Source: Gluconobacter albidus
GTDB taxonomy: Bacteria > Pseudomonadota > Alphaproteobacteria > Acetobacterales > Acetobacteraceae
NCBI RefSeq assembly: GCF_002723915.1
Contig: NZ_BEWL01000011.1
Span: forward strand, 1 to 64,000
Length of the DNA stretch: 64,000 bases
Direction of reading: 5' to 3'
Shown here: in pieces, positions 46,632 through 61,418 of the stretch
How the letters are laid out: every line of letters starts with the position of its first letter
How positions within the stretch are numbered: position 1 is the stretch's first letter
Position numbers and translations under genes: made by a program
The notes under the pieces: generated by a model
Database searches by the model: none
Seen by the model: the letters and a program-made list of their open reading frames with translations, nothing else
What the model was told of the DNA's origin: nothing

Positions 46632-48028
46632 TGAAAATCCGCTCCGACATCCTGCGCGTCTACCGCGAGGTCCATAGCTGGGTCGGGATCTGTGCCGGAC
46701 TGCTTCTGTTCGTGGCGTTCTTCGCCGGTGCGATCAGCATGTTCGAACAGCCCCTCCAGAACCTGACCTCACCCCAACTCGACATGCCGCCCCCGGTACC
46801 TTTGTCCAAGACACCAGATCTGCTCGAAAAGGTCTTCAGCGCCTATCCGCAGGCCCGGCAGACCTACACAATCCTGCTCGCCCCGGACCGCACCCTTCCT
46901 GGCCGCCTGGCATGGCCTGTACACCCGCCCCACGGCCACGACGCAGGGCCGATGTTCGTCGCAACGCTTGCCCCCGACGGCGCGCTGGTCGTCCGTCAGC
47001 AGGCCATCACCCCGGTCGCGCATTTCATCGACATGCTGCATCAGGAACTGGGCATCCCCCTGCCCCATGCAATCAGCCGACCGTTCATGGGCATCATCGC
47101 GCTCCTCTACGGCATGGCCCTGATCTCGGGCGTGCTGCTGTTCCTGCCCACGCTGGCCCGCAACCTGTTCGCGTTCCGCTTCCGCGAGGGACCGCGCAAA
47201 CTCTGGCTGGACCTGCACAATCTGCTGGGTTTCTTTTCGCTGCCCTTTCACATCGTCATGGCCCTGACCTCTGTGGTCTTCGCATTCCATGACCCCATTT
47301 TCGCAGTGCAAAGCCGGGTTTTCGCCACATCCCATGCCTCCCAGCATCTTCCGACGCATACAAGGCCTCATCCCATCACTGCGGACCAACACCCCGACGC
47401 ACGGCTCCTCACCCCGACCGAACTCGTGACGTCCCTCGGAACACAGGCCCCTGGCTTCGTCCCCACCACACTGGCCTATAGCCAGGGCCATGGCGGCATG
47501 ATGCTGCGTGTCAGCGGGCAGGACAGCCGCTACAGCATGCGCGGCCCCACGGCAGGCTTCGCCACGGTCGATCCCCGCAGCGGCAAAATCCTGTCCGCAG
47601 ATTATCTCCCCGGCCATCAGAAAACCGGCTTTGCCATCCTGACGGTTTTCTTCGCCCTGCATTTCGGCAGTTTCGGCGGCAACGCAATCCGCTGGGGCTA
47701 TGTCGTTCTGGGTCTTGCAGGGGCTGGCATGTTCTATACCGGCAACCGGCTCTGGATCGACGCCCGCCGCCGCCGCGAAAAAGCGGCAGGCCTTCCCCAT
47801 GACAGCCTCCCCACCAGCATTCTGGCCCGCCTGACCCCCGGCTGGACCGCAGGCTGCATCAGCGGAACCGGCGTGATCCTTCTGGCAGGACTGCTAAAGC
47901 CTGACCTCATGACCGAAACCGTCGTGACCTCCGCATATTACGGCGTTTTCCTCGGATGCATCGCGGTCTTCCTGTTCAAACCCCAGAGGCTCCGCTCAAC
48001 GCCCCAGTCAACGTCTCAAATGTCCTGA
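46631..48028 (+). CDS. PepSY-associated TM family protein (iron uptake, PiuB-like)
   Basis: A 465-residue inner-membrane protein with four or more helices and a large periplasmic loop. The N-terminus [34 protein letters not shown] and the later [30 protein letters not shown] and [30 protein letters not shown] are the PepSY-TM signature, with conserved His in membrane helices that may bind haem. Family members are thought to reduce ferric siderophores at the inner membrane. ATG 46631 is coupled to the previous gene. Its last 13 bases overlap the convergent hutI gene. Confidence 0.9.
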
Positions 48029-49254
48029 ACGCAGCGCCCCTCAAAAATACGACGCGTGGGGCGCAGACCGCCCACCCAGTAAGACAGTTCATGCGGGCCA
48101 GTCACATCCCACAGCGCCATATCCGCCCGCATCCCCTGCCGCAGCATACCCACCTGCTGCCCCAGCCCCAGAGCCCGCGCCCCCACGGACGTCACCGCCC
48201 GGAAGCTCTCTTCGGGCGTCAGACGAAACAGCGTGCAGCCCATGTTCATGACGGCCGTCAGCCCCAGAACAGGGGACGTCCCCGGATTGCAGTCTGTCGC
48301 AAGTCCGATACCCACGCCATGCTCACGCAGCAATGCGACAGGCGGAAGCTGCTTTTCGCGGATGAAATAGAATGCGCCAGGAAGCAGCATCGCAACCGTC
48401 CCATGACGCGCCATGCTCATGACAGCCTGCTCATCCGCATATTCCAGATGATCCGCAGACAACCCATGATACCGCGCGGCCAGAACCGTCCCTCCGCCCA
48501 GAGAAAGCTGCTCGGCATGAATGCGGACGGGCAGTCCGAGCGTCTGGGCCGCCTCGAACAGGATTTCCGTCTGGGCGGGTGAAAAGGCGATCGTCTCACA
48601 GAACGCATCCACGCTATCAACCAGCTTTTCTTCATGAAGAACCGGCAGAACTTCCTCGACCAGAAACGTCACATACGCGTCCGCACGCCCCTGATATTCG
48701 GGCGGCACCGCATGCGCGCCCAGAAACGTCTTGTGCACACGGACCGGCAGCTGCTCGCCGATCGCCCGCGCCACCCGCAACTGTTTGAGTTCGTCCGCAA
48801 GGGTCAGTCCGTAGCCTGACTTCACTTCCAGCGTCGTGGTGCCTTCGCGGATCATCGTACGCACCCGCTTGAGGGACGCCTCCAGAAGCTCCTGCTCCGA
48901 TGCCGCGCGCGTCGCCGCAACCGTCGAGAGAATACCGCCGCCCTTGCGCGCAATCTCCTCATAGGACGCCCCGTTCAGCCTTTCCGCGAACTCACGACTG
49001 CGATCGCCCGCAAACACGACATGCGTATGCGCGTCGACCAGCCCCGGCGTCAGCCAGCCGCCGCGCCCGTCCTCGATCCGGATGGCCAGATTTTCCGGCA
49101 CATCCGGCAGATCCGCCTGCGCGCCAATCCAGCAGATCGCCCCGTCGTGCACGCCCACTGCACCATTGCGGATACATCCATACCCATCCCCGGCCGTGAC
49201 GAGAGCCTCACCACCCGTCGCAAGATGGACATTGAGCCAAAGGACGTCCCACAT
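48016..49254 (-). CDS. hutI: Imidazolonepropionase
   Basis: Third step of histidine degradation: hydrolyses 4-imidazolone-5-propanoate to N-formimidoyl-L-glutamate. 412 residues of the metal-dependent amidohydrolase superfamily. [20 protein letters not shown] holds metal ligands His76 and His78; further marks are [56 protein letters not shown] and [12 protein letters not shown] with the metal Asp. The start has GGAGA 6 bases upstream. It is divergent from hutF, with a HutC-type operator between them, and slightly overlaps the PepSY gene end. Confidence 0.95.
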
Positions 49255-49287: not shown

Positions 49288-49303
49288 ATATGTATATACA
49301 TAT
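49288..49303. promoter_or_regulatory. HutC-type operator between hutI and hutF
   Basis: ATATGTATATACATAT is a perfect 16-base palindrome centred between the divergent hutI and hutF genes, with the TGTATATACA core of HutC sites. Binding here would repress both genes until urocanate relieves it. Confidence 0.75.
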
Positions 49304-49387: not shown

Positions 49388-50758
49388 ATGACCGAAGTGT
49401 TTGCAAAACAGGCCCTCCTGCCACAGGGGTGGCGCCGCAACGTCCAGATCACCATCGCCGCTGACGGGACGTTCACCTCCGTCACCCCCGACAGCACACC
49501 TGGCCCGGATATGCAGCTTCTGGACATGGTCGTGCCCCCGCAGATCAGCCTGCATTCCCACGCCTTCCAGCGCGCCATGGCAGGACTGGCAGAGCGCCGA
49601 CAGAACCCGGACGACACCTTCTGGACGTGGCGCACGCGCATGTACCAGCTCGCGCATCGCATCTCCCCGGAGCAGATGCAGGACGTGGCCGCCTTCCTGT
49701 ATATGCAGATGCTCAAGGCCGGCTACGCGCAGGTCGCCGAATTCCATTACCTGCACAACGCCGTCGACGGACGCCCCTATGCGTCCCCGGCCGAAATGTC
49801 CTCACGCCTCGCCGCAGCCGCCACCGATGCAGGTATCGGCATCACGCTCCTCCCCACCCTCTACGCCCGTGGCGGGTTTGACGGCAGCCCGCTGAACGAC
49901 GCCCAGAAACGCTTCGCCAGCACCCCGGACATGATCGCCCGCATCCTGTCCGACCTCCAGTCCGACTGGCACGGTTCGCCACTGGTGACGGCCGGGATAG
50001 GCCTGCACTCCCTCCGCGCCGTGGACATCCACACCCTCGGCGACCTGCTCCGCGCAGCAGGCCCCGCCGCCCCGATCCATATTCACATCGCCGAACAGCA
50101 GCGCGAGGTGGAAACCTGCCTCTCCGTCACGGGACAACGCCCCGTAGAGCATCTGATGAGCCACCTGCCCGTCGATGCCCGCTGGTGCCTCGTCCACGCC
50201 ACCCATCTCTCGGCCGAAGAAGTCACCGCCATCGCCCGCTCCGAGGCCGTGGCCGGTCTCTGCCCGATCACGGAAGCCAATCTGGGAGACGGCATTTTCC
50301 CGTTCGAAGCCTATGTCGCGCAATCAGGTCGCTTCGGCATTGGCAGCGACAGCAACGTCCTGCTCAGCCCGTGGGAAGAGCTCCGCCTTCTGGAATATGG
50401 CCTGCGCCTGCAAAGCCAGAGACGCTGCGTGGCCCTCCCCCCGGACCACAAGGGGTCGATCGGCGCATGGCTGTACCGCCAGAGCCTCGCCGGGGGGACG
50501 CAGGCCAGCGGCCTGCCCCTCAGCGGCCTGCAACCCGGCGCCCGCGCCGATCTGTGCGTCCTCGACGAACAGGCCCTGTCCCTGCCGGACCTTCAGAACG
50601 ACGACATTCTCGACTCTGCCATTTTCGCGACCTCAAGCCCCCCCGTCCGGCACGTCATGTGCGCCGGACAATGGCGCATCACCGATGGCCACCACCCCGA
50701 CGAAGCCCGCCTGACCAGGGCTTTTCATGCAACCCTGCGCACCCTGATGGCTGCCTGA
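49388..50758 (+). CDS. hutF: Formimidoylglutamate deiminase
   Basis: Converts N-formimidoyl-L-glutamate to N-formyl-L-glutamate and ammonia, the deiminase branch of the hut pathway. 456 residues of the amidohydrolase superfamily: PPQISLHSHAFQRAMAG with metal His56 and His58, TFWTWRTRMYQLA, EFHYLHNAVDG, IHIHIAEQQREVE, CLVHATHLSAEE and FGIGSDSNVLLSPWEELR. ATG 49388 has GGAA 7 bases upstream; the frame extends upstream by 14 residues without support. It is followed by hutG after 19 bases. Confidence 0.95.
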   Translation: MTEVFAKQALLPQGWRRNVQITIAADGTFTSVTPDSTPGPDMQLLDMVVPPQISLHSHAFQRAMAGLAERRQNPDDTFWTWRTRMYQLAHRISPEQMQDVAAFLYMQMLKAGYAQVAEFHYLHNAVDGRPYASPAEMSSRLAAAATDAGIGITLLPTLYARGGFDGSPLNDAQKRFASTPDMIARILSDLQSDWHGSPLVTAGIGLHSLRAVDIHTLGDLLRAAGPAAPIHIHIAEQQREVETCLSVTGQRPVEHLMSHLPVDARWCLVHATHLSAEEVTAIARSEAVAGLCPITEANLGDGIFPFEAYVAQSGRFGIGSDSNVLLSPWEELRLLEYGLRLQSQRRCVALPPDHKGSIGAWLYRQSLAGGTQASGLPLSGLQPGARADLCVLDEQALSLPDLQNDDILDSAIFATSSPPVRHVMCAGQWRITDGHHPDEARLTRAFHATLRTLMAA

Positions 50759-50777: not shown

Positions 50778-51581
50778 ATGACGACCGTTTTTTCCTTTAC
50801 TCCCGGCACCCTCCCGATCCTGATCACAATCCCCCATGCGGGCGACCGTCTGGCGCCGGGCATGGACGAGCGCATGACCCCGCGCGGCAGAAAACTGCCC
50901 GATACCGACTGGTACATGGAACATCTCTATGCCTTCGCGCTGTCAAAAGGGATCGGCATCCTGCGCGCAAATTTCTCCCGTTATGTCGTGGACCTGAACC
51001 GAGGCCGGGATGACGCCGCCCTTTATGCCGGACGGCCCAGCACGGGTCTGGTGCCGCTGCTGGGCTTTGACGGACAGCCCATCTATCAGGACGGTCAGGC
51101 GCCGGATGCCGACGAAATCGCCGCACGGACAGAGCAGTACTGGCAGCCCTATCACGACGCCGTACAGGCCGAACTGACGCGCCTCCGGGAACAGTTCGGA
51201 TGGGCGATCCTGTGGGATGCCCATTCCATCTGCTCGGAAATTCCCAGACTGTTCGAAGGGCGCCTGCCGGACCTGAACTTCGGCACCAACAGCGGGACCT
51301 CCTGCGCACCCTCACTGGCCGAAGCGCTCCTTGCCCGCGCAGAAACGCTCACCGCCTACACCCATGTCCGCGACGGCCGATTCAAAGGCGGCTACACAAC
51401 GCGCCATTACGGCCAGCCAGCGGACAACATCCACGCCATCCAGCTCGAAATCGCCCAGTCCACCTATCTTGCCTCAGAGCAGGACCCCTGGCCCATCGAC
51501 CTTCAGGCCGCCGCCAGTCTCTCGGCCGCCATCGAACCCCTGTTGGCAACAGCCGCAGACTGGCGCCCCGAAAGCTCCTGA
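50778..51581 (+). CDS. hutG: N-formylglutamate deformylase
   Basis: Last step of this hut branch: N-formyl-L-glutamate to formate and L-glutamate. 267 residues of the FGase family: ILITIPHAGDRLAPGM, DTDWYMEHLYAF, ANFSRYVVDLNRGRDD, LWDAHSICSEIPRLFEGRLPDLNFGTNSG, FKGGYTTRHYGQP and HAIQLEIAQSTYL. Conserved His and Asp residues could serve the zinc site. It is the second gene of the hutF-hutG operon, and its end lies 3 bases from the convergent hutD end. Confidence 0.94.
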   Translation: MTTVFSFTPGTLPILITIPHAGDRLAPGMDERMTPRGRKLPDTDWYMEHLYAFALSKGIGILRANFSRYVVDLNRGRDDAALYAGRPSTGLVPLLGFDGQPIYQDGQAPDADEIAARTEQYWQPYHDAVQAELTRLREQFGWAILWDAHSICSEIPRLFEGRLPDLNFGTNSGTSCAPSLAEALLARAETLTAYTHVRDGRFKGGYTTRHYGQPADNIHAIQLEIAQSTYLASEQDPWPIDLQAAASLSAAIEPLLATAADWRPESS

Positions 51582-51584
51582 ACA

Positions 51585-52169
51585 TCAGCCGGGGGCAACG
51601 CAATACAAAAGGCCGTCCCCGGCCGATTCCAGCCGCCTGCCACTCCCTTCCGGCAGCACCAGATACGCCCCGGCCACGCAGGTCCGGGGCTGCCCCGACG
51701 CTCCCTCAAACACCCAGCATCCCCGCGCGACAACCACCGCGCGCGCCGCAGACACTTCAAAACCCGAAGCATCCCCGCCCCGAACCGCCTCCATCCGCCA
51801 CGGGCGGTCCGCAGGATGCATCAGGTTCACCACCTGAACCGGCCCGTCCACAAGAACGGCTTCCACATCCAGATCACCGGAAAACGTCAGAATTTCCCCG
51901 GCCCGGACGACTTCCCGCTCCGTCCCGTCCGAAAGACGAAGCCGCACGCCCTGCCCCGTCAGCAGCGCAATCTGCCTCGAAATTCCCGGAAACCGCGAGA
52001 AAGCGCCATCCTGCGTAATCTCCGCAACGCTCAGACGCCACTCTTCGCCAGAAACAATGACCCGCGTCAGGCCACCACCGTTTTTCCACGCCTGCGCGAC
52101 AAGGTTTTCAACCGGCTGCGGCCCACGGGACAACGGGAAAAGATTGTCATTTTCCGGATCCGGCTTCAT
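51585..52169 (-). CDS. hutD: HutD family cupin protein
   Basis: About 194 residues. HutD is a bicupin-fold protein conserved in proteobacterial hut clusters and thought to limit excess pathway activity; it has no known enzymatic reaction. Family marks: AWKNGGGLTRVI, WRLSVAEITQDGAFSRFPGISRQIALLTGQGVRL, FSGDLDVEAVL and VVNLMHPADRP. Start 52169 (MKPDPENDNLF) gives the usual length; an in-frame ATG at 52202 would touch the operator, and a longer frame upstream is not supported. Divergent from hutC. Confidence 0.88.
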   Translation of the reverse strand: MKPDPENDNLFPLSRGPQPVENLVAQAWKNGGGLTRVIVSGEEWRLSVAEITQDGAFSRFPGISRQIALLTGQGVRLRLSDGTEREVVRAGEILTFSGDLDVEAVLVDGPVQVVNLMHPADRPWRMEAVRGGDASGFEVSAARAVVVARGCWVFEGASGQPRTCVAGAYLVLPEGSGRRLESAGDGLLYCVAPG

Positions 52170-52203
52170 ATGGTCATACGCCTGCTTAGGGGTGTGTCTC
52201 ATA

Positions 52204-52213
52204 TGTAAGTACA
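52204..52213. promoter_or_regulatory. HutC-type operator between hutD and hutC
   Basis: TGTAAGTACA keeps the TGTA-N2-TACA symmetry of the HutC core seen at the hutI/hutF site. It lies between divergent hutD and hutC, 20 bases before the hutC start, fitting autoregulation. Confidence 0.5.
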
Positions 52214-52233
52214 ACAACCCGGCAGGATCAGAA

Positions 52234-53019
52234 ATGCTCTCCCGCCCACAGAGGGCAGACCAGTCCTCAAGAGAAGAAAAGGCAGCGGGCGCCGTGTCGC
52301 AGATCCTGGACAAGACGAAGACCATCGCACGTTACGAGCAGGTGAAAGCATTCATCATCGAACGGATCGACTGCGGGGAATGGAAAGTCGGCCACCGCCT
52401 CCCCTCCGAACATGAATTCGTCGAACAGCTCGGTATTTCCCGCATGACGATCCACCGGGCGCTGCGGGAACTGACAGCCGAAGGGATCGTCCGACGGGCA
52501 CAGGGGGTCGGCACCTTCGTGGCCCAGCCCGCCAAACGCGTCGAACTTCTGGAAATCCGCGATATCATCGACGACATCGTCGCCAGCGGCCACCAGCACC
52601 GCGCCGAAGTCATCGCCGTGGAGACGGTGCGCGCCGACAGCGATCTGGCCACGGCGTTCGAACAGCGCCCCGGCACACGTCTGTTCCGCTCCCTGATCGT
52701 CCATTACGAAGACGATGTGCCCCTTCAGCTTGAAGAGCGCTACGTCTCTCCGCATTTCGCCCCGGATTATCTGGAACAGGATTTCACCCACATCAATCCG
52801 CACCGCCATCTCTACGGAATCGCCGGACCGGAAGAAATCGAACATGTGGTCTTCGCCGTCACGCCGCCGCAGGAGATCTGCACCCTTCTGCAACTCGACG
52901 AACCGGAAGCCTGCCTGCAACTGATGCGCCGCACATGGGTCGACGGCCGCGTCGTCATGAAGGGCATCTTCACCTATTCCGGCAACCGCTACAGCTTCGG
53001 CGGGCGCTACCGCCCCTAA
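52234..53019 (+). CDS. hutC: Histidine utilisation repressor, GntR/UTRA family
   Basis: Repressor of hut genes, released by urocanate. 261 residues: an N-terminal GntR winged helix-turn-helix (ARYEQVKAFIIERIDCGEWKVGHRLPSEHEFVEQLGISRMTIHRALRELTAEGIVRRAQGVGTFV) and a C-terminal UTRA effector domain (LFRSLIVHYEDDVPLQLEERYVSPHFAPDYLEQDF, YSGNRYSFGGRYRP). ATG 52234 has AGGA about 7 bases upstream; the open frame reaches back much further without a start signal. It is followed by the hutH-like gene after 93 bases. Confidence 0.94.
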   Translation: MLSRPQRADQSSREEKAAGAVSQILDKTKTIARYEQVKAFIIERIDCGEWKVGHRLPSEHEFVEQLGISRMTIHRALRELTAEGIVRRAQGVGTFVAQPAKRVELLEIRDIIDDIVASGHQHRAEVIAVETVRADSDLATAFEQRPGTRLFRSLIVHYEDDVPLQLEERYVSPHFAPDYLEQDFTHINPHRHLYGIAGPEEIEHVVFAVTPPQEICTLLQLDEPEACLQLMRRTWVDGRVVMKGIFTYSGNRYSFGGRYRP

Positions 53020-53112: not shown

Positions 53113-54621
53113 GTGACCGAACTTCTGCTCGATCAGCCTTTCTCTCCGCAGGACATCTGCGACATTGCCCGGAACAGAAAAACGGTCCGGCTGTCGCAGG
53201 CCGCGCGGCAGCGGCTTGAGGACGCCAACCGGCGCCTGCGTGTGCTGGTCGAGAGCAAGTCCGCCGCCTACGGCCTCAATACGGGCGTGGGCGGCCTGTC
53301 GGACACACGCATCACGCCCGAAAAACAGTCCACTCTCTCCCGCAAGATTCTCTTCAGCCATGCCACGGGGCTCGGCCCGCCCCTCAGTGCCGAAGCAACG
53401 CGCGCCATCATGGCCTGCGCCGTCAACCAGTATTGTCTGGGCTATTCCGGCCTGCGCGCGGAGATCGTCGATCGCCTCGTCGCTTTCCTCAACCACGATT
53501 GCCTGCCGATCGTGCCAAGAGACGGATCGGTCGGATATCTCACACACATGGCCCATATTTCCCTGACCCTGATCGGTCACGGAACGCTCCGGACCAATGC
53601 CACGGAACAGCCCGCCGCCGAGGTGCTGGAACGGCTCGGTTTCACCCCACTCGTTCTTGAAGCCAAGGAAGGGCTGTGTCTGGTCAACGGCCTCTCCTGC
53701 GCCACCGGAATTGCCAGCCTCGTCACGGAAGAAGCCGCCGCCTGCCTCCACTGGGCAGATCGGATCGCCGCCGCAACTTTTGATGTCCTTGGCGGACAAC
53801 AGCGCGCCTTCGATCCACGCTCTGCAAACCTCCGCATCCCGCCCGGCCATCGCGCCGTCTCACAAACCCTCAACCAGAATCTGGCAGATTCCGCCCGCCT
53901 TGCGGACGCCCGTGGCCAGCGCACACAGGACGCCCTGAGTCTGCGCGCCATCCCCCATATTCATGGATCGGTCCATGACGCCCTGACCGGCATCCGCCAC
54001 ACCGTCACACACGAACTGCAAAGCCTGTCCGACAACCCCGCCATCATTGAGGACGAAACAGGCATCGGCGCATTCTCCGAAGCCCATGCCGTCGGCGCCA
54101 GCATCGCCCGCGTCATGGACGAAGCCGCCATCGCGCTGGCCTCTCTGGGCGCCGTCTCCGAACGCCGTCTGGACCGCATGGTCAACCCCCTGCTCAGCCC
54201 GTTCCCGGCGTTCCTGTCGAGCGATTCCGGCACGGGAAGCGGCTTCATGATCGCGCAATACACGGCGGCCTCGCTTGTCAGCACCAACCGCCGCAACGCC
54301 CTCCCCGCCAGTCTGGATGGCGGCATTACCTCAGGTCTTCAGGAAGACATTCTTGTCCACGCCACACCAGCGGCTCTCAAGGCACGGGACGTTGTCGCCA
54401 ATACGCGATCCATTCTCGCGATCGAACTTCTGGCCCTCTGTCAGGCCGTGGACCTCGCCGGCCTCACCGGAAAAATCGCCCCCCGAACGCTGGAGCTTTA
54501 CAACAGCGTGCGGGCCGTCCTGCCCCTTTACGAGGAAGACCACCCGCTAGCGGACGATATCACCCGACTTGAAGCCCTGATGCAGGCCGACCCTCCGTGC
54601 CGGACGCCCGGATCTCCCTGA
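53113..54621 (+). CDS. Histidine ammonia-lyase homologue without the MIO tripeptide
   Basis: Member of the aromatic amino acid lyase family (HAL/PAL), 502 residues, in the hutH position. True HutH makes urocanate from histidine using the MIO cofactor built from Ala142-Ser143-Gly144. Here numbering matches through YGLNTGVG (Tyr53) and GSVG (138-141), but Ala-Ser-Gly is absent: Gly141 is followed by Tyr142 (GSVGYLTHMAHI). GGNFH is replaced by GAFSEAH and the SANQED region by SGLQED. The fold otherwise looks intact (SDNPAI, SERRLDRM, SGFMIAQYTAASL), with no frameshift. MIO-less members of the family include ergothionase, which eliminates trimethylamine from ergothioneine; that or another elimination is possible. 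Starts at GTG 53113. Confidence 0.85.
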   Translation: MTELLLDQPFSPQDICDIARNRKTVRLSQAARQRLEDANRRLRVLVESKSAAYGLNTGVGGLSDTRITPEKQSTLSRKILFSHATGLGPPLSAEATRAIMACAVNQYCLGYSGLRAEIVDRLVAFLNHDCLPIVPRDGSVGYLTHMAHISLTLIGHGTLRTNATEQPAAEVLERLGFTPLVLEAKEGLCLVNGLSCATGIASLVTEEAAACLHWADRIAAATFDVLGGQQRAFDPRSANLRIPPGHRAVSQTLNQNLADSARLADARGQRTQDALSLRAIPHIHGSVHDALTGIRHTVTHELQSLSDNPAIIEDETGIGAFSEAHAVGASIARVMDEAAIALASLGAVSERRLDRMVNPLLSPFPAFLSSDSGTGSGFMIAQYTAASLVSTNRRNALPASLDGGITSGLQEDILVHATPAALKARDVVANTRSILAIELLALCQAVDLAGLTGKIAPRTLELYNSVRAVLPLYEEDHPLADDITRLEALMQADPPCRTPGSP

Positions 54622-55762
54622 GGAGAACAGGCAGCCCGAACGGAAGGCTGACCACACAGGCCACACACCCGGCAATGCCAAGCATCGTGAAAGAGGCATG
54701 ATCAACAATCAGCCCCCCAAGCGGTGCCCCCAGGGCATATCCCATACGGTCCATGCCGCCGCAGAACGTCCCGACCCGACCCGTATGATCCAGCGCAGCT
54801 GCACTTCCCAGCAGCCACGCATAAGACAGCATGGAACAGTTCCAGTAGATGATGACGCCCGCCGTATAGCTCCAGGAATCCCACGCGCAACACGCCAGCA
54901 ACCCGCCCACGCCCGTTCCCACCAGCGTCAGCGGCAGAATGATCTCCCGCCGCAGCCGCTGCGCCAGCGCGCCGACAATGAAACTGACCAGAACGCTGGA
55001 CACGATACCCACCGTCGAGAGAAAAACGATATAATCAACTGACAGATGAATGGCCCGCCCGACCCGCTCGGCAAAGGACCACGCCATGCTCGATCCCAGA
55101 GACGACCCCACCCAGATAAACAGCAGCGCCACCCCGCCACGCGTCAGACGCATCTTTTCCGTACTCTGCCGGACCGGCAATGGGGGCGCATGGCGCAGTG
55201 TTGCCATGAACGGCGCAATCACCGCAACAATAACCGCGATCCCGACAAAAACCCCCAGTTCGCCAAAACTGCGCGTGGCGTAAGGGATGGCGTCGATCAC
55301 CGCCACCAGAACGATCAGCCCCCCGCCATTGGAAATGGCATACATCCGGTCAGGGTTTTCACTCGCCGACGCCGCACAGACATAGGACCGCCCCAGCAGC
55401 GCCTCGCCCAGACCAAACAGAAGCGCACAGCCCCACGTCCATGCCGAAGAAGACAGGCCTGTCGCCGTCAGCAGAGACGACAGAACCGCCAGCCCCGCAC
55501 CCAGAAACGCCGTCATGACCACCGAAACGCGCCCCGTCAGACGGGACAGCACCACCATGAAAACCGCAAAGGAAATGATTTCGAAAAAGCCGAACATCCC
55601 CGCCCGACTGGCGGACTGATGCAGCCCTGACATCAGTGCATCAATCTGAAAGGGCATCACGGACGAACCGAGATACGCACACCCGGAGCAGATGCTGAGC
55701 CCCAGAGACAGCAGCAGAAGCTGCCGCCCCGGAAGATAACGGGTCGCCTGTATCCCTGTCAT
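54560..55762 (-). CDS. MFS transporter in the hut locus
   Basis: Inner-membrane carrier of 400 residues with about 12 helices (LLLLSLGLSICSGCAYLGSSVMPFQI, FFEIISFAVFMVVLSRLTGRVSVVMTAFLGAG, LLFIWVGSSLGSSMAWSFAERVGRAI). It does not match a named MFS subfamily by eye. Its position downstream of hutU and beside the hutH-like gene suggests uptake of histidine, urocanate or a betaine relative, which is inference. Its 3' end overlaps the convergent hutH-like gene by 62 bases. A terminator at 55790-55820 separates it from hutU, so it may need its own promoter or read-through. Confidence 0.85.
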   Translation of the reverse strand: MTGIQATRYLPGRQLLLLSLGLSICSGCAYLGSSVMPFQIDALMSGLHQSASRAGMFGFFEIISFAVFMVVLSRLTGRVSVVMTAFLGAGLAVLSSLLTATGLSSSAWTWGCALLFGLGEALLGRSYVCAASASENPDRMYAISNGGGLIVLVAVIDAIPYATRSFGELGVFVGIAVIVAVIAPFMATLRHAPPLPVRQSTEKMRLTRGGVALLFIWVGSSLGSSMAWSFAERVGRAIHLSVDYIVFLSTVGIVSSVLVSFIVGALAQRLRREIILPLTLVGTGVGGLLACCAWDSWSYTAGVIIYWNCSMLSYAWLLGSAAALDHTGRVGTFCGGMDRMGYALGAPLGGLIVDHASFTMLGIAGCVACVVSLPFGLPVLLREIRASGTEGRPASGLQVG

Positions 55763-55828: not shown

Positions 55829-57523
55829 TCATTCCTTGTTCGTAATCATGGGCAGGTTCAAGCCCTTTTCATGCGCACAGGAAACAGCAATGTCGTAGCC
55901 GGCATCAGCATGCCGCATCACGCCCGTGGCCGGATCATTCCACAGCACACGCCCCAAACGGGCTGCGGCATCCTCTGTGCCATCTGCGACAATGACCATG
56001 CCCGAATGCTGGGAGAATCCCATCCCGACACCACCGCCATGATGCAGTGATACCCAGGTCGCACCCGAAGCGGTATTGAGCAGAGCATTCAGCAACGGCC
56101 AGTCGGAAACAGCGTCCGATCCATCCCGCATGGCCTCCGTTTCACGATTGGGACTGGCCACCGACCCACTGTCCAGATGATCCCGTCCGATCACAATCGG
56201 CGCCTTCAGCTCACCCTTGGCCACCATCTCGTTAAACGCCAGACCCAGCCGGTGACGGTCCCCGAGCCCCACCCAGCAGATCCGGGACGGCAGACCCTGG
56301 AACTGGATTTTCTCCCGTGCCATATCCAGCCAGTTGTGCAGATGCTTGTCGTCCGGCAGCAGTTCCTTGACCTTCGCATCGGTCTTGTAGATGTCCTCCG
56401 GATCGCCTGACAGCGCCGCCCAGCGGAACGGACCGATCCCCCGGCAGAACAGCGGGCGGATATAGGCCGGTACAAATCCCGGAAACGCAAAGGCATCTTC
56501 CAGCCCTTCTTCCAGCGCCATCTGGCGGATGTTGTTGCCGTAATCGAAGGTCGGCACCCCCATCCGATGGAACTCTACCATTGCCTCGACCTGAAGCCGC
56601 ATGGACTCCCGCGCCGCTTTCTCAACCGCCGCCGGGTCCGTAATCCGCAGCTTCTCGGCCTTCTCCAGCGACCATCCAGCCGGGAGATATCCATTCAGCG
56701 GATCATGCGCGGATGTCTGGTCCGTCACACCATCCGGACGGATGCCACGGCGCACCAGCTCCGGGAAGACTTCAGCCGCATTGCCCAGAAGCCCCACGGA
56801 AACCGCCTCGCCCTTCGCGCAGGCCTCATGAATGATCTGCAACGCCTCATCCAGATCCTGCACCTGCCGGTCCAGATAGCCCGTCTCCAGACGCTTCTGA
56901 ATGCGCGACGGCTCACATTCCACCGCCAGCATGGACGCTCCGGCCATCACGGCGGCCAGCGGCTGCGCACCGCTCATACCCCCCAGACCACCCGTCAGAA
57001 TCCAGCGGCCCTTGAGGTCGCCACCGTAATACTGGCGCCCCATCTCAACGAACGTCTCATACGTCCCCTGAACAATCCCCTGACTTCCGATATAGATCCA
57101 GGACCCGGCCGTCATCTGGCCGTACATCATCAGCCCCGCCCGATCGAGCTCGTTGAACTTCTCCCAGGTCGCCCAGTGCGGCACGAGATTGGAATTCGCA
57201 ATCAGAACACGCGGCGCATTGGCATGCGTCCGGAACACACCAACCGGCTTGCCGGACTGAACGATCAGCGTCTCTTCATCCTCCAGCTCTCGCAGGGCTT
57301 CCACGATCCGGTCATAGCAGTCCCAGTTCCGCGCAGCCCTTCCAATCCCGCCATAAACCACAAGCTCCGACGGCTTCTCCGCGACTTCCGGATCGAGATT
57401 GTTCATCAGCATCCGCATGGCCGCTTCGGTCTGCCACGACTTCGCACTGATCTCGGAGCCATGGTCGGCACGGATCACACGATCATTCGACAGACGGGAC
57501 GACACGGAAGGAGAATTGACCAT
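55829..57523 (-). CDS. hutU: Urocanate hydratase
   Basis: Second hut step: urocanate plus water to 4-imidazolone-5-propanoate, using tightly bound NAD as electrophile. 564 residues and fully canonical: [76 protein letters not shown] with Cys416 (equivalent to the P. putida active-site Cys410), [65 protein letters not shown] 57523 follows GGAG; an upstream ATG is part of that ribosome site. It lies 47 bases downstream of a receptor gene on the same strand. Confidence 0.97.
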
Positions 57524-57570
57524 GAGTAAGGTCTCCATTTTCAGAAAAACAGAAAGAGGTTTGGAAAAGT

Positions 57571-59961
57571 TCAGAAGCCCGCAGCCACGGTCATCGCCGT
57601 CGTAAATCGCGGCGCGATGTAATATCCGGGGGAGCTTCCATCAATGGATGTCCCGTAAATGCCACGGGTGGTCTGGGCATTCAGCTGCGGCGACGCAATA
57701 CCGGACAGGACTTTCTCATCCGTCAGGTTGATGAACGCGACCCGGATTTCCGGATGTTTGACAAAACCGACGCTCGGCAGACGATACCCCAGAGACAGGT
57801 TGAACGTCTTGTAAGCGGGCATTTTTTCATCGTTCATAAAGGTCGAATACTGCGAGCCGGTGTATTTGAACGAGAACGTTCCGAAGAAATTCTTGTAGTC
57901 ATAGACAAGACCGAAAGATCCCTGAAACGACGGACTGCGAACCGCCGTCTTCCCTGCCGTCGGCAGATAATCGTTTCCGACCTGAATATTGTTGTCGATC
58001 GTCGCATGAAGATATTCGACAGACACATAAGGCGAAAAGCCATGAAACGGCATCAGCCCTGCTTCGAAATCCACACCGCGCGACGTCTGTCCGCCGCCGT
58101 TGATCGTCGAATAGACCGGAACGTTATTGACGTAACGCAGGCTGGACACCTGCCTGTTTGTGAAGTTGTAGTTGAACAGGGCCAGACTGGCATGAATGAT
58201 CCGGTCCTGATAGCGATATCCCAGCTCTTCGGAAATCGAATATTCAGGCTTGATCCCCGGATTGCCCTGCGTTGAAATAGCCCCACCCGAATAGGAATTG
58301 TACAGGGTGTCATCAATCGGCATCAATGTATTGGTGCTGGCATTGATGAAGACCTGATTGTGGGAATCAATCTTGTACGTCGCCGAAACGCGCGGCAGCG
58401 GCTGGAAGTTATTGGCCCCGACATGATACTGCGTGCCCGGCAGACCATTGGTCCCGGCCTTGCTCATCATCAGCGTCTTGATGCCACCCACAATCTTCAG
58501 CCGATCATTGAGAAGCGAAATCTCATCCTGCAAGTAGAGCGCATTCGTCTGCGTGACGGTATGCTCCTTCTCCGCCAGATACGGCTGACCATTGCTCATG
58601 GTCACGTTCCGCAGGCTCCAGGCCGAAGCCGGATTGCCTGAAGCATCGACCGACGAAAACGGCATCGACAGATCATCAACGCTATACTGATACCAGTATC
58701 CCAGCGTCACTTTCTGCACCCCGAACTGACGGGACAGGGACGCGTTGAACCCGCCTACGGACTGCACGCCCACGTAATCGCTTCTCACACTCCCGCCCGA
58801 CGCCTGGGCATCCGGAATGGTCACGGAAACAGGTTCCGTTCCGTAATAGTTGCCGTCAGACGACAGCGTGGAAGACGCCGGAGAATTCTGCATCGCATAC
58901 AGGAAATAAGGCGTCACATTGAGCTTCACCTTCCCCGGAAGCGTAAAGTCGGAGGGCAGACTCATCATGATCTGCTCCCATTTCCAGCGGTTCTGCCGCC
59001 AGTAATCCGAGCTTCCGGGCGTAAATGTCCCGTTCCATGCATAACTCCGTCCCGAAGTCTGCCAGTCGGCAAGCGTCGGGTTCGGATTGTACATGTAGTT
59101 CATGTCAACATACGACCCGACCAGCTTCATCCGGTCGCCGTTTGCAAATTCCTTCTTGAAGCCGAAGTCGATATGCCGGCGCATCTGCCGCCCCGGTCCG
59201 AGGGAATTCTTGGCCGTTCCGTTGGAAAACGACACATAGGCCGAAAGACCCGTATTCCCGATATCCCCAGTATCGAAACGTCCGAAGAACCGCTGAAGGT
59301 TCAGCGTGCCGTAACTGTAATCGACCAGTCCGCCCATCTTGTGAGACGGATCGCGCATCAGCGTCGTAACCTGGCCGCCCGAAGCATTGACCACAGGCGC
59401 CGTGATGGACGAAGACCCCTGCGTCAGACTGACGGAATCAATATCTTCACCATCCGCCCAGTATGTCGGATAGCCGTTATAGGTCTCGATATCGTTGACC
59501 GGCATGCCTTCCCAGACCTGCCCGATCTCGTTGCCCCCCAACCCGCGCACGCTCAGCATCGAATTGGCCGCAAAACCGTAAGGATCACTCTGGGAAAGAT
59601 TGGCACCCGGCGCCAGCGAAACAGCCTGATAGGCCGTCGTCGTCGACGCCTGCTTGTTGATATATTCCGAAGTCACGGTACTGCGCATGTCGCCGCCCGT
59701 CTGAACGGCCATCAGCCCCCCGCCCGCAATGTGCCGGACCTTGCCATACGCCCCGTCCTCACCCGCCGCATGCACGGAAATAACCTCCGGCCCCCGCGCA
59801 CTGACAGAATGAGACTTCCGCTTCACCGGTGCCCCGGCGGCATGCGCCTGCAACCGCGAACGCGCATGTGTTGCCGACGCGGCTCCAGCCAGAGAGGTCG
59901 ACGCCAGAAACGTCATGGTGGAAAGGGCTACACAAGCACGACGGCGTTTTGCGATTGGCAT
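57571..59961 (-). CDS. TonB-dependent outer-membrane receptor of the hut locus
   Basis: Outer-membrane TonB-dependent transporter of 796 residues. Signal peptide [30 protein letters not shown]; basic linker; plug ([39 protein letters not shown]); barrel ending in TMTVAAGF with the terminal Phe. The start has GCAGG 5 bases upstream. It lies just upstream of hutU on the same strand with 47 bases between, so the two are probably one operon, which makes a histidine- or urocanate-like ligand plausible. A perfect palindrome at 60009-60024 precedes it. Confidence 0.92.
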
Positions 59962-60410
59962 GGTACCTGCTCGGAATCATTTCGTATCGAAGTCACAATG
60001 TCATGTCTGGTTGCATATGCAACCTCCATTTTACACCGATATGACAAAGACATGTCTAAAATTCCCAAAGATCCATAAAAATAATTCCAATATACCAATG
60101 CCTTAGAAAAAAACTCGCTTCCCTCCGAAAAATTCTTTCAACCCGCTCCACACCGCCCAGCAAAAACCTTCCCACCAGCCCTCAGGAACACACAATCAGG
60201 CTCGTCGACCACACTTCTCAAAAAAGAAAAGTCATTAACTAATTGATTTAACTCATTTTTTTATAAACAGAATTTCAGAGAAAAATCCCCTTCACAAGAT
60301 TCGCAGAGACCTACCCTTTCTCCCCTGTAAAATTGTATAGGCAAATCCTCCTTGCGATGAGCGTCCCTCTTGGGCATGCTCGCCACATCTGCCCCTTCCC
60401 GAGAGCGCGC
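59962..60410. other. Intergenic region between receptor and oxygenase genes
   Basis: No gene is supported. The left part carries two palindromes, GGTTGCATATGCAACC at 60009-60024 and AGACATGTCT at 60048-60057, fitting the promoter region of the receptor-hutU operon. The right part is AT-rich with no clear coding frame up to the oxygenase start. Alternative upstream starts for the oxygenase at 60333 (TTG) and 60357 (ATG) lie in it. Confidence 0.5.
60009..60024. promoter_or_regulatory. Palindromic operator candidate before the hut receptor-hutU operon
   Basis: GGTTGCATATGCAACC is a perfect 16-base palindrome about 48 bases upstream of the receptor start. It equals the HutC form TTGTATATACAA with two symmetric substitutions (T to C, A to G), so it could be a variant HutC site; another repressor is possible. 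Confidence 0.5.
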
Positions 60411-61418
60411 ATGTCCTGGACCACGGCTGAAACCGGCGACCCCATCCCGCCCTTCGTACAGAAAGCCAGCACCAGTTCCGGGGCCCTGTCCTTTGACATG
60501 GTGGGCGGACGCAGAATCCTGCTCTTTTTCTTTGATTCTTCGACCAATCCTGCGGTCAAAAGCGTCCTCCAGCGCCTTTCCCACCATCCGGATGTCCTGA
60601 ATCGCAGAGACTGCCTGTTTCTGGGCGTCACCCTCGACAGGGCCGACACGGACGTCCTCAAAAACCGGTCCGATCTCAGATCGGTCTGTTTCCTTTACGA
60701 TACCGACCGCATCTGCCACCGGACGTTCGGAATTGCTGAAAACGCGCCACCGGGCTGGATAGAACTCGACCCGATGATGCATGTCGTCCACACGCAGCTC
60801 CACCGCCCCGGTCTGGAAGAAACGCTTTTCGCGACGTTACTCCAGAAAGCCACCGCCCCGCAGCGCAGCATGCCTGCGCCGGTCCTCATGCTGGATCACG
60901 TTCTGGAACCGGCCTTCTGTCAGGACCTGATCCGGTATCACGACACCCACAATCCCCAGCCCTCTCCCATCCTGACCTCCAATGCCGCAGGACATCCGGT
61001 CCGCACCGTCGCCCCGGATTTCAAACGCCGGCGGGACACGCCCCTGCGCGACCGGGGCATCGTCACAGCGCTGCAAAACCGCATCATCCGCCGCGTCGTC
61101 CCCGAGATTTTCCGGGCTTTCCGCTTCACGGCGACACAAATGGACAGAATGCTCGTCAGCTCCTACGACGCCACCGATAAAGGCTTTTTCGACGCCCATC
61201 GCGACAATACCGTCCCCAGTTCCGCCCACCGCCAGTTCGCCGTCTCCCTCACCCTCAATGACGACTACATGGGCGGAGAACTGATTTTCCCCGAATTCGG
61301 GCCACAGACATTCCGTCCCAATGCTGGCGGAGCCGTCGTATTTTCCTGCGCGCTCCTGCATGCCGTCCAGCCCGTTACATCCGGCCGGAGATACGCCTGC
61401 CTGCCCTTCGTCTACTAA
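60411..61418 (+). CDS. Thioredoxin-fold-like domain fused to a 2OG-Fe(II) oxygenase
   Basis: About 335 residues. Residues 1-160 look like a peroxiredoxin/AhpC-type thioredoxin fold (AETGDPIPPF, SFDMVGGRRILLFFFDSS, GVTLDRADTDVL, FLYDTDRICHRTFGI, GWIELDPMMHVV) but lack a peroxidatic Cys where expected. Residues 170-335 are a prolyl-4-hydroxylase-type oxygenase: LEPAFCQDLIRYHDTH, MLVSSYDATDKGFFDAHRDN with His263 and Asp265, distal His317 in LLHAVQP and the 2OG-binding Arg near 327 (TSGRRYA). The iron site is complete. ATG 60411 begins the family-like N-terminus; ATG 60357 is an alternative. Substrate unknown. Confidence 0.85.
   Translation: MSWTTAETGDPIPPFVQKASTSSGALSFDMVGGRRILLFFFDSSTNPAVKSVLQRLSHHPDVLNRRDCLFLGVTLDRADTDVLKNRSDLRSVCFLYDTDRICHRTFGIAENAPPGWIELDPMMHVVHTQLHRPGLEETLFATLLQKATAPQRSMPAPVLMLDHVLEPAFCQDLIRYHDTHNPQPSPILTSNAAGHPVRTVAPDFKRRRDTPLRDRGIVTALQNRIIRRVVPEIFRAFRFTATQMDRMLVSSYDATDKGFFDAHRDNTVPSSAHRQFAVSLTLNDDYMGGELIFPEFGPQTFRPNAGGAVVFSCALLHAVQPVTSGRRYACLPFVY

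Follow-up and report, generated by a model that had tools for sequence, protein, structure and literature searches.

Organization of the hut locus

The window, that is, the whole stretch of 64,000 nucleotides that was analysed, contains a hut locus in which a lyase gene related to hutH is accompanied by the genes and putative operators listed in Table 1. A preliminary description of this DNA had called HutU, HutI, HutF and HutG canonical, and this was borne out, as each of them, and HutC likewise, scored above the cut-off of its NCBIfam model. When HutU was compared with the thiourocanate hydratase model NF058530, it scored 702 bits, short of the cut-off of 930; the lyase of the window and that of locus L046 are each accompanied by a HutU that is a true urocanate hydratase. 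The label HutD for the ORF on the minus strand next to hutG is our assumption. The TonB-dependent receptor was not specific to loci of this kind, a similar one being found near canonical histidine ammonia-lyase (HAL) in 9 of 21 control loci.

Table 1. Features of the hut locus and their positions in the window
Feature	Position	Strand	Evidence
hutI, imidazolonepropionase	48016..49254	-	TIGR01224, 447 bits (cut-off 298)
HutC-like palindrome ATGTATATACAT	49290..49301	.	Between hutI and hutF
hutF, formimidoylglutamate deiminase	49388..50758	+	NF006684, 622 bits (cut-off 525)
hutG, N-formylglutamate deformylase	50778..51581	+	TIGR02017, 332 bits (cut-off 279)
hutD-like, start uncertain	51585..52325	-	Weak match to NF008488 (Ves), 38 bits, under the cut-off of 292
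hutC, histidine-utilisation repressor, start uncertain	52225..53019	+	TIGR02018, 268 bits (cut-off 220)
HutC-like operator palindrome TTGTATAGACAA	53087..53098	.	26 bp upstream of lyase start; kept in 5/5 congeners
MIO-less HutH homologue (YLxH lyase), proposed hercynine trimethylamine-lyase	53113..54621	+	GTG start, 502 aa; PF00221, 460.6 bits; below HutH cut-offs; clade and residues
GSVGYLTH, site of the missing Ala-Ser-Gly, with Tyr142 and His145	53524..53547	+	Junction between 53535 and 53536; motif common to 83 other clade rows
MFS transporter, between lyase and hutU	54560..55762	-	PF07690, 45.8 bits; kept in 5/5 congeners (synteny)
hutU, urocanate hydratase	55829..57538	-	TIGR01228, 968 bits (cut-off 375)
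TonB-dependent receptor, possible outer-membrane uptake	57571..59961	-	PF00593 and PF07715; synteny; palindrome upstream
HutC-like palindrome TTGCATATGCAA	60011..60022	.	Upstream of TonB-receptor gene

The palindrome pattern gave 8 strand matches (4 places) in the window compared to 1.2 expected, a number reached by none of 100 shuffles. Palindromes of this type are presumably bound by HutC, which would respond to urocanate. In all five Gluconobacter genomes carrying the lyase, the host included, they were found upstream of the lyase, in the hutI/hutF region and upstream of the TonB receptor. In 8 of 8 canonical-HAL loci of congeners that were scanned (L133-L140), palindromes were located at, or close to, the hutU start and the hutF/hutI start, and L047 and L157 had one each, at hutU. 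A partial palindrome (60333-60344) was also seen at the start of an ORF (within 60333-61418) that was labelled 2-oxoglutarate-oxygenase-like by eye and that stays beside the hut locus in congeners.

The lyase lacks the MIO-forming tripeptide

The lyase was assigned to the aromatic amino acid lyase superfamily, its PF00221 score standing far above the Pfam gathering score of 27.3. In contrast, it reached 428.8 bits with TIGR01225 and 432.1 bits with NF006871, below the HutH cut-offs of 539.15 and 524, respectively, compared to 703-708 and 740-758 bits for the canonical HALs of congeners. The alignment with Pseudomonas putida HAL (PDB 1b8f) was ungapped over residues 43-141 and then showed an exact loss of three residues (Ala142-Ser143-Gly144), with GSVG-YLTHMAHI in the window lyase against GSVG-ASG-DLAPLAHM in HAL. 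It agrees with the preliminary description, in which P. putida numbering was followed to Gly141 and the cofactor tripeptide was then missing; the codons at the site read G S V G Y L T H, so that GSVG does directly precede YLTHMAHI. After the gap, Tyr142 of the window lyase was paired with Asp145 of HAL, and His145 with Pro148. The Tyr53 loop was kept, as had been described, and the GGNFH and SANQED motifs were indeed altered, with Ala, Ala and Leu opposite P. putida G327, F329 and N412, respectively, and E414 retained. The AlphaFold model of the lyase had a pLDDT of 92.4 and a pTM of 0.92, and in Foldseek it matched HAL 1b8f with a TM score of 0.90 and ergothionase with 0.88, so that HAL and ergothionase were not told apart by fold.

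A sequencing error at the junction had been named as one of the findings that could overturn this description. The same site was found in four congeners and in 77 of the 80 scanned loci among the matches listed, and chance or a sequencing error is therefore excluded. Among the congeners with the MIO-less lyase, the lyase gene gave pairwise dN/dS values of 0.10-0.14 and hutU gave 0.01-0.03, indicating that the lyase is under purifying selection, weaker than that on hutU; together with the recurrence of the site, this also ruled out a pseudogene.

Lyases in the host genome and in congeners

No other hutH was present in the window, as the preliminary description had stated. It had also considered that histidine might be deaminated elsewhere, and this was not supported: a PF00221 search of the whole host genome (3.29 Mb in 49 contigs, 99.9% complete) found no canonical, Ala-Ser-Gly-containing MIO lyase, and a hidden canonical HAL was thereby rejected. 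The only other PF00221 protein, at C10:53719, carried GSIGCAD without Ala-Ser-Gly and was ergothionase-like, its nearest PDB entry being ergothionase. Its neighbours encode the N-carbamylglutamate hydrolase ErtE, a thiohydantoin desulfurase and a hydratase-like protein that shares 48% identity with HutU; the desulfurase and hydratase-like genes belong to an ergothioneine-type cluster at this other locus and do not lie beside the window lyase. This cluster (L041, G000:C10:46000-62000) looks disrupted, either by decay or by an assembly error, with a TonB receptor ORF of 666 aa compared to 797 in congeners, an MFS gene split in two ORFs, and a hydratase-like gene that stops at about 514 aa with the rest matched separately. 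In the host genome there was no match to PF10017 (EgtD-type), so hercynine would be imported from outside.

Among 26 genomes of the genus, canonical HutU was found in 14, canonical HAL in 9 and the MIO-less lyase in 5 (the host G000, G006, G007, G018 and G020). Both lyases occurred in G006 only, and the other four MIO-less genomes were without canonical HAL. The lyase, hutC, MFS, hutU and TonB genes of the five MIO-less loci were in the same order and matched over nearly their full length, and the congener lyases were 85-95% identical to that of the window. An ergothionase-like gene was found in 4 of the 26 genomes, three of which also had the MIO-less lyase (3/5 compared to 1/21, p = 0.014, an indicative value).

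Departures from this arrangement were also noted. In G006, hutI, hutF and hutG of the MIO-less locus (L035:5462-7902) were fragmented, and a full canonical hut locus was present elsewhere (L047). The hutF gene of G007 was in two pieces near its end. G011 (L157, G011:C7:8000-27000) had hutC, I, F, G and U and a HutD-like gene with a lyase of neither type, and perhaps uses external urocanate.

The lyase belongs to a large conserved clade

The scan of named genomes gave at least 80 loci. In 77 of the 80 among the matches listed, the protein was closer to the window lyase than to canonical HAL, and all 77 carried GS[VA]GY[LI]xH; the other three (L128, L130 and L131) were ordinary ASG lyases. In an even sample of the phylum Pseudomonadota, the clade was found in at least 23 of 398 genomes, own genome included, a lower bound since up to three candidates were scored per genome. 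The profile scores split cleanly, with 23 genomes at 594 bits or more and the next match at 420, and the motif was present in all 22 other positive genomes (21 plus G107, which is L050). At least 19 of the 23 also had a second, lower-scoring lyase or HAL ORF (17 by profile scan, plus G377 and G420). Rather than standing alone, the window lyase belongs to a large conserved clade.

A tree built from 71 rows placed all 35 of the clade members chosen on one branch (100/100), whose join to the HALs was weakly supported (85/14), and six ergothionase-type rows formed a separate group (100/96) on long branches. Both groups were kept in a quick tree of 69 rows from which the MIO-site and other active-site columns had been removed, with SH-aLRT values of 100 for the clade and 94 for ergothionase. 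Judged from sequence, the clade is within the HAL fold and is neither HutH by its defining cofactor nor ergothionase by descent.

The clade is not always recognised as such in annotation. Two Pseudomonas members fell below the TIGR01225 cut-off (535 and 536 bits) but above that of NF006871 (552 and 549 bits), so automatic annotation may name them HAL, and a similar gene bore the name histidine ammonia-lyase in 8 of 20 plasmid records among the matches listed, as judged by gene similarity and not by motif.

Active-site residues are selectively conserved

The active-site alignment comprised 177 rows, of which 84 were YLxH (77 scanned loci, the window, four congeners, L046 and L050), 84 had ASG and 9 were other; four ASG rows that were not HutH-like were dropped from the comparison, leaving 80 of HutH type. 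Ala-Ser-Gly was absent from the window and the 83 other clade rows. Y53, H83, Q277, R283 and E414 were kept in 84/84 YLxH rows and N195 in 83/84. Position 280 was Leu and position 329 Pro or Ala in all 84, compared to Tyr and Phe, respectively, in 80/80 HutH-type ASG rows. Every clade row had Asp216, Arg355 and Tyr383, residues that are seldom found in HAL. Tyr142 and His145 belong to the motif that defines the group, yet they were present in every row picked by similarity.

These patterns suggest a split between a kept side that would hold the histidine skeleton and a changed side that would face the amine. In the HAL of G. kaustophilus, mutation of the residues equivalent to Y53, H83, N195 and E414 abolished activity on histidine, according to the accessible part of PMC11432326, where the equivalents of Asn195 and Glu414 are also described as touching the ammonium or amino group. 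The Asn and Glu kept in the clade could thus be in contact with the amine too, a mild argument against the split.

Other forms of the site were also observed. Rhizobium, Mesorhizobium and further Rhizobiales rows (L065-L067, L069-L075, L083, L088, L090 and L095) had GSAGYL[ST]HNAH, a distinct form within the clade, with a family-3 substrate-binding protein (SBP) beside some and no recognised neighbour beside others. In two other family members, L037 (GSVGASDLAL) and L039 (GSIGGGDLGL), from relatives of the window organism, Ala-Ser-Gly was also not intact and was replaced differently; these are possible further MIO losses.

Comparison with HAL, ergothionase and second HutH copies

With HAL (HutH; TIGR01225; PDB 1b8f) the window lyase shares the fold, the hut context and Y53, H83, N195, Q277, R283 and E414. 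In contrast to HAL, it lacks Ala-Ser-Gly and hence MIO, has Leu for Y280, Ala for F329 and Leu for N412, has Tyr142 and His145 at the vacated site, and fails the HutH cut-offs.

Ergothionase (PDB 6s7j, Treponema denticola) is likewise a MIO-free member of the fold with Leu at position 280, and trimethylamine is the proposed leaving group in both. Its pathway runs through thiourocanate. In contrast to the clade, ergothionase forms a separate tree group, and the T. denticola enzyme retains the MIO-loop length (SSIGEGDIT) and Phe at 329, as read from a PDB-fragment row. The lack of MIO in ergothionase is given in the accessible part of PMC13405746. Membership of the window lyase in ergothionase was rejected on the tree, the MIO-site motif and the hydratase neighbour, which is below the NF058530 cut-off.

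In hut loci of Pseudomonas the second HutH copy, and in Sinorhizobium meliloti a lyase beside betaine-type ABC genes, were found to belong to the same clade, with GSVGYLTH and adjoining OpuAC-type ABC genes (L068, L078 and L105). L078 and L105 have canonical HAL in the same locus, unlike the window organism. We take the Pseudomonas copies to be hutH1/hutH2 and the S. meliloti ABC genes to be HutXWV. In hut genetics of P. fluorescens SBW25, one of two HutH copies was reportedly non-functional for histidine. PA5093 is presumably the MIO-less lyase (compare L105, Pseudomonas aeruginosa PA7). In the accessible part of PMC12772324, hutG is given as PA5093, and the gene labels around PA5093 in that paper may be confused.

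Betaine-type transporter genes lie near many clade lyases

Within 5 kb of the lyase, an OpuAC-type betaine SBP was found in 37/84 and a BCCT transporter in 5/84 clade loci (42/84 in total), compared to 0/21 canonical control loci by the same BLAST criterion. The controls were canonical loci without a MIO-less lyase, one of which (L047) was from a genome with a MIO-less lyase elsewhere. Because the BLAST representatives had been taken from clade loci, a choice that could favour those loci, a second sample from the phylum was recounted with Pfam models. By BLAST, 12 of 21 loci in this sample (including L162 and L164) had such a gene within 5 kb compared to 0 of 19 controls (Fisher p = 6e-5); the 12 positives were spread over four families with 8 in one, so the loci are related and the p values overstate independence and are indicative only. 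PF02028 (BCCT) and PF04069 (OpuAC) recovered the same 12 positives in the 40 genomes and none within 5 kb of HAL in the 19 controls, of which 10 had OpuAC and 10 had BCCT elsewhere in the genome. BCCT was found in G164 and G420, the latter also with OpuAC 4.2 kb away, and OpuAC in G172, G176, G243, G259, G349, G377, G398, G422, G456 and G469.

In L117, L129, L132, L177 and L178 the BCCT gene separated hutU from the lyase, and in L121 it was on the other strand. In L123 the BCCT ORF overlapped the lyase ORF, and its product was nearest to trimethylamine and glycine betaine transporters, but the WAWW segment differed. The gene order in L078 (Pseudomonas) was hutU, hutT, OpuAC ABC genes, MIO-less lyase, HAL, permease, hutI and hutG. 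The window's own transporters are MFS and TonB, not OpuAC or BCCT.

Other neighbours were less uniform. A family-3 amino-acid SBP was found within 5 kb in 28/84 clade loci and hutU in 44/84, and the stretches examined around the 84 loci were without hutU in 34 cases and without HAL in 38. OpuAC-type SBPs can also carry histidine, as does HutXWV of S. meliloti. EgtU, an ergothioneine-specific SBP, binds hercynine about 10,000-fold more weakly, according to the accessible part of PMC9732360, indicating that binding proteins can tell histidine betaines apart.

Proposed function and alternatives

In HAL, a free amino group is activated by the MIO cofactor, whereas ergothionase shows that a quaternary trimethylammonium can leave without it. 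As one of two options, the preliminary description had suggested that the lyase eliminates a better leaving group and that the locus degrades urocanate of unusual origin. This reading is supported, since it fits the MIO loss that co-varies with Y280L and F329P/A as well as the HutC-like operator, the canonical HutU and the betaine transporters next to many relatives. Because a quaternary amine needs no MIO and the product must suit a true urocanate hydratase, hercynine is the simplest compound that fits, and the window gene probably codes for a MIO-free lyase that converts hercynine to urocanate with release of trimethylamine.

The sequence, the clade, the co-variation, the gene context and the conservation of the palindromes were observed directly, and from them we infer the substrate, products, single-residue roles, regulation and each chemical step of the following scheme. 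Hercynine (Nalpha,Nalpha,Nalpha-trimethyl-L-histidine) would be gripped at its histidine skeleton by the residues shared with HAL, His83, Arg283, Asn195 and Glu414, and its beta proton would be taken by Tyr53. The quaternary trimethylammonium would depart in the form of trimethylamine and, unlike a free amino group, would not require electrophilic activation. Space for it would come from the loss of Ala-Ser-Gly, Tyr280 and Phe329, and the vacated site would be rebuilt by Tyr142 and His145. The urocanate would then enter the ordinary hut pathway (HutU, HutI, HutF and HutG) and relieve HutC repression. In the window organism the MIO-less lyase would be the only identified entry to the pathway, and in Pseudomonas a second entry beside normal HutH.

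Several points count against hercynine: the OpuAC proteins may carry histidine, family-3 SBPs are present in a third of the loci, the window's own transporters are of the MFS and TonB types, the BCCT of L123 departs from glycine betaine transporters in its WAWW segment, the lyase is under weaker constraint than hutU, and its fold resembles those of HAL and ergothionase equally well. Mild counter-evidence also comes from the fragmented hut genes of G006 and from the loci that lack hutU, and the main transporter association was confirmed by the Pfam control.

An unlikely alternative, which would still yield urocanate, is that the lyase acts on another Nalpha-substituted histidine, such as dimethylhistidine, a histidine opine or some other conjugate. 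The replacements Y280L and F329P/A would give any bulky N-substituent room on the amine side, and the family-3 amino-acid-type SBPs would suit such a substrate; however, secondary and tertiary amines still need activation, normally by MIO, and the BCCT neighbours suggest quaternary compounds.

That the protein is a paralogue without catalytic activity, retained because it partners another protein structurally or in regulation, is very unlikely. The missing MIO, a dN/dS above that of hutU and the SBW25 copy that reportedly does not function for histidine could be read in this way, but the host genome has no HutH to partner, and purifying selection acts on the gene. Moreover, Y53, H83, R283 and E414 are kept in every clade row, and the equivalents of Y53, H83, N195 and E414 were needed on histidine in G. 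kaustophilus (PMC11432326, accessible part).

Also very unlikely is a histidine ammonia-lyase that works without MIO by using Tyr142 and His145 as a new catalytic device. The complete hut locus, the HutC-like palindrome ahead of the gene and, motif aside, the name given to a similar gene in the plasmid records are in its favour. Nevertheless, relatives coexist with normal HAL in the same locus, for example L078, and the established mechanism makes the loss of free ammonia from histidine chemically unfavourable when no electrophile assists. That the protein is a second ergothionase, with ergothioneine as its substrate, is scarcely credible, since the lyase, although MIO-free and with Leu280 as in ergothionase, falls in a separate tree group, differs at the MIO site in sequence and length (GSVGYLTH compared to SSIGEGDIT), adjoins a HutU under the thiourocanate hydratase cut-off, and is found in a host that already has a separate ergothioneine-type cluster.

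A literature search found no paper on a lyase making urocanate from hercynine among the titles listed; most subscription journals were outside its coverage, and prior publication is possible.

Significance of the clade

Given the HAL name in records and the Pseudomonas members that pass a HAL model, predictions of pathways may attribute the use of histidine to a protein that is probably incapable of it. We lean slightly towards regarding this widespread, misnamed clade as a second gateway to the hut pathway, through which Pseudomonadota would import fungal or microbial hercynine, shed trimethylamine in a rebuilt MIO-free active site and burn the urocanate; in a few species, including the window organism, hercynine would have taken the place of histidine as the sole entry identified, alongside an ergothioneine-type cluster. 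If hercynine is indeed the substrate, the clade would show how a betaine common in fungi can be catabolised and would be a source of trimethylamine in bacteria. The second HutH of Pseudomonas, so far unexplained, would then have a function, and MIO would have been lost in a clade apart from ergothionase.
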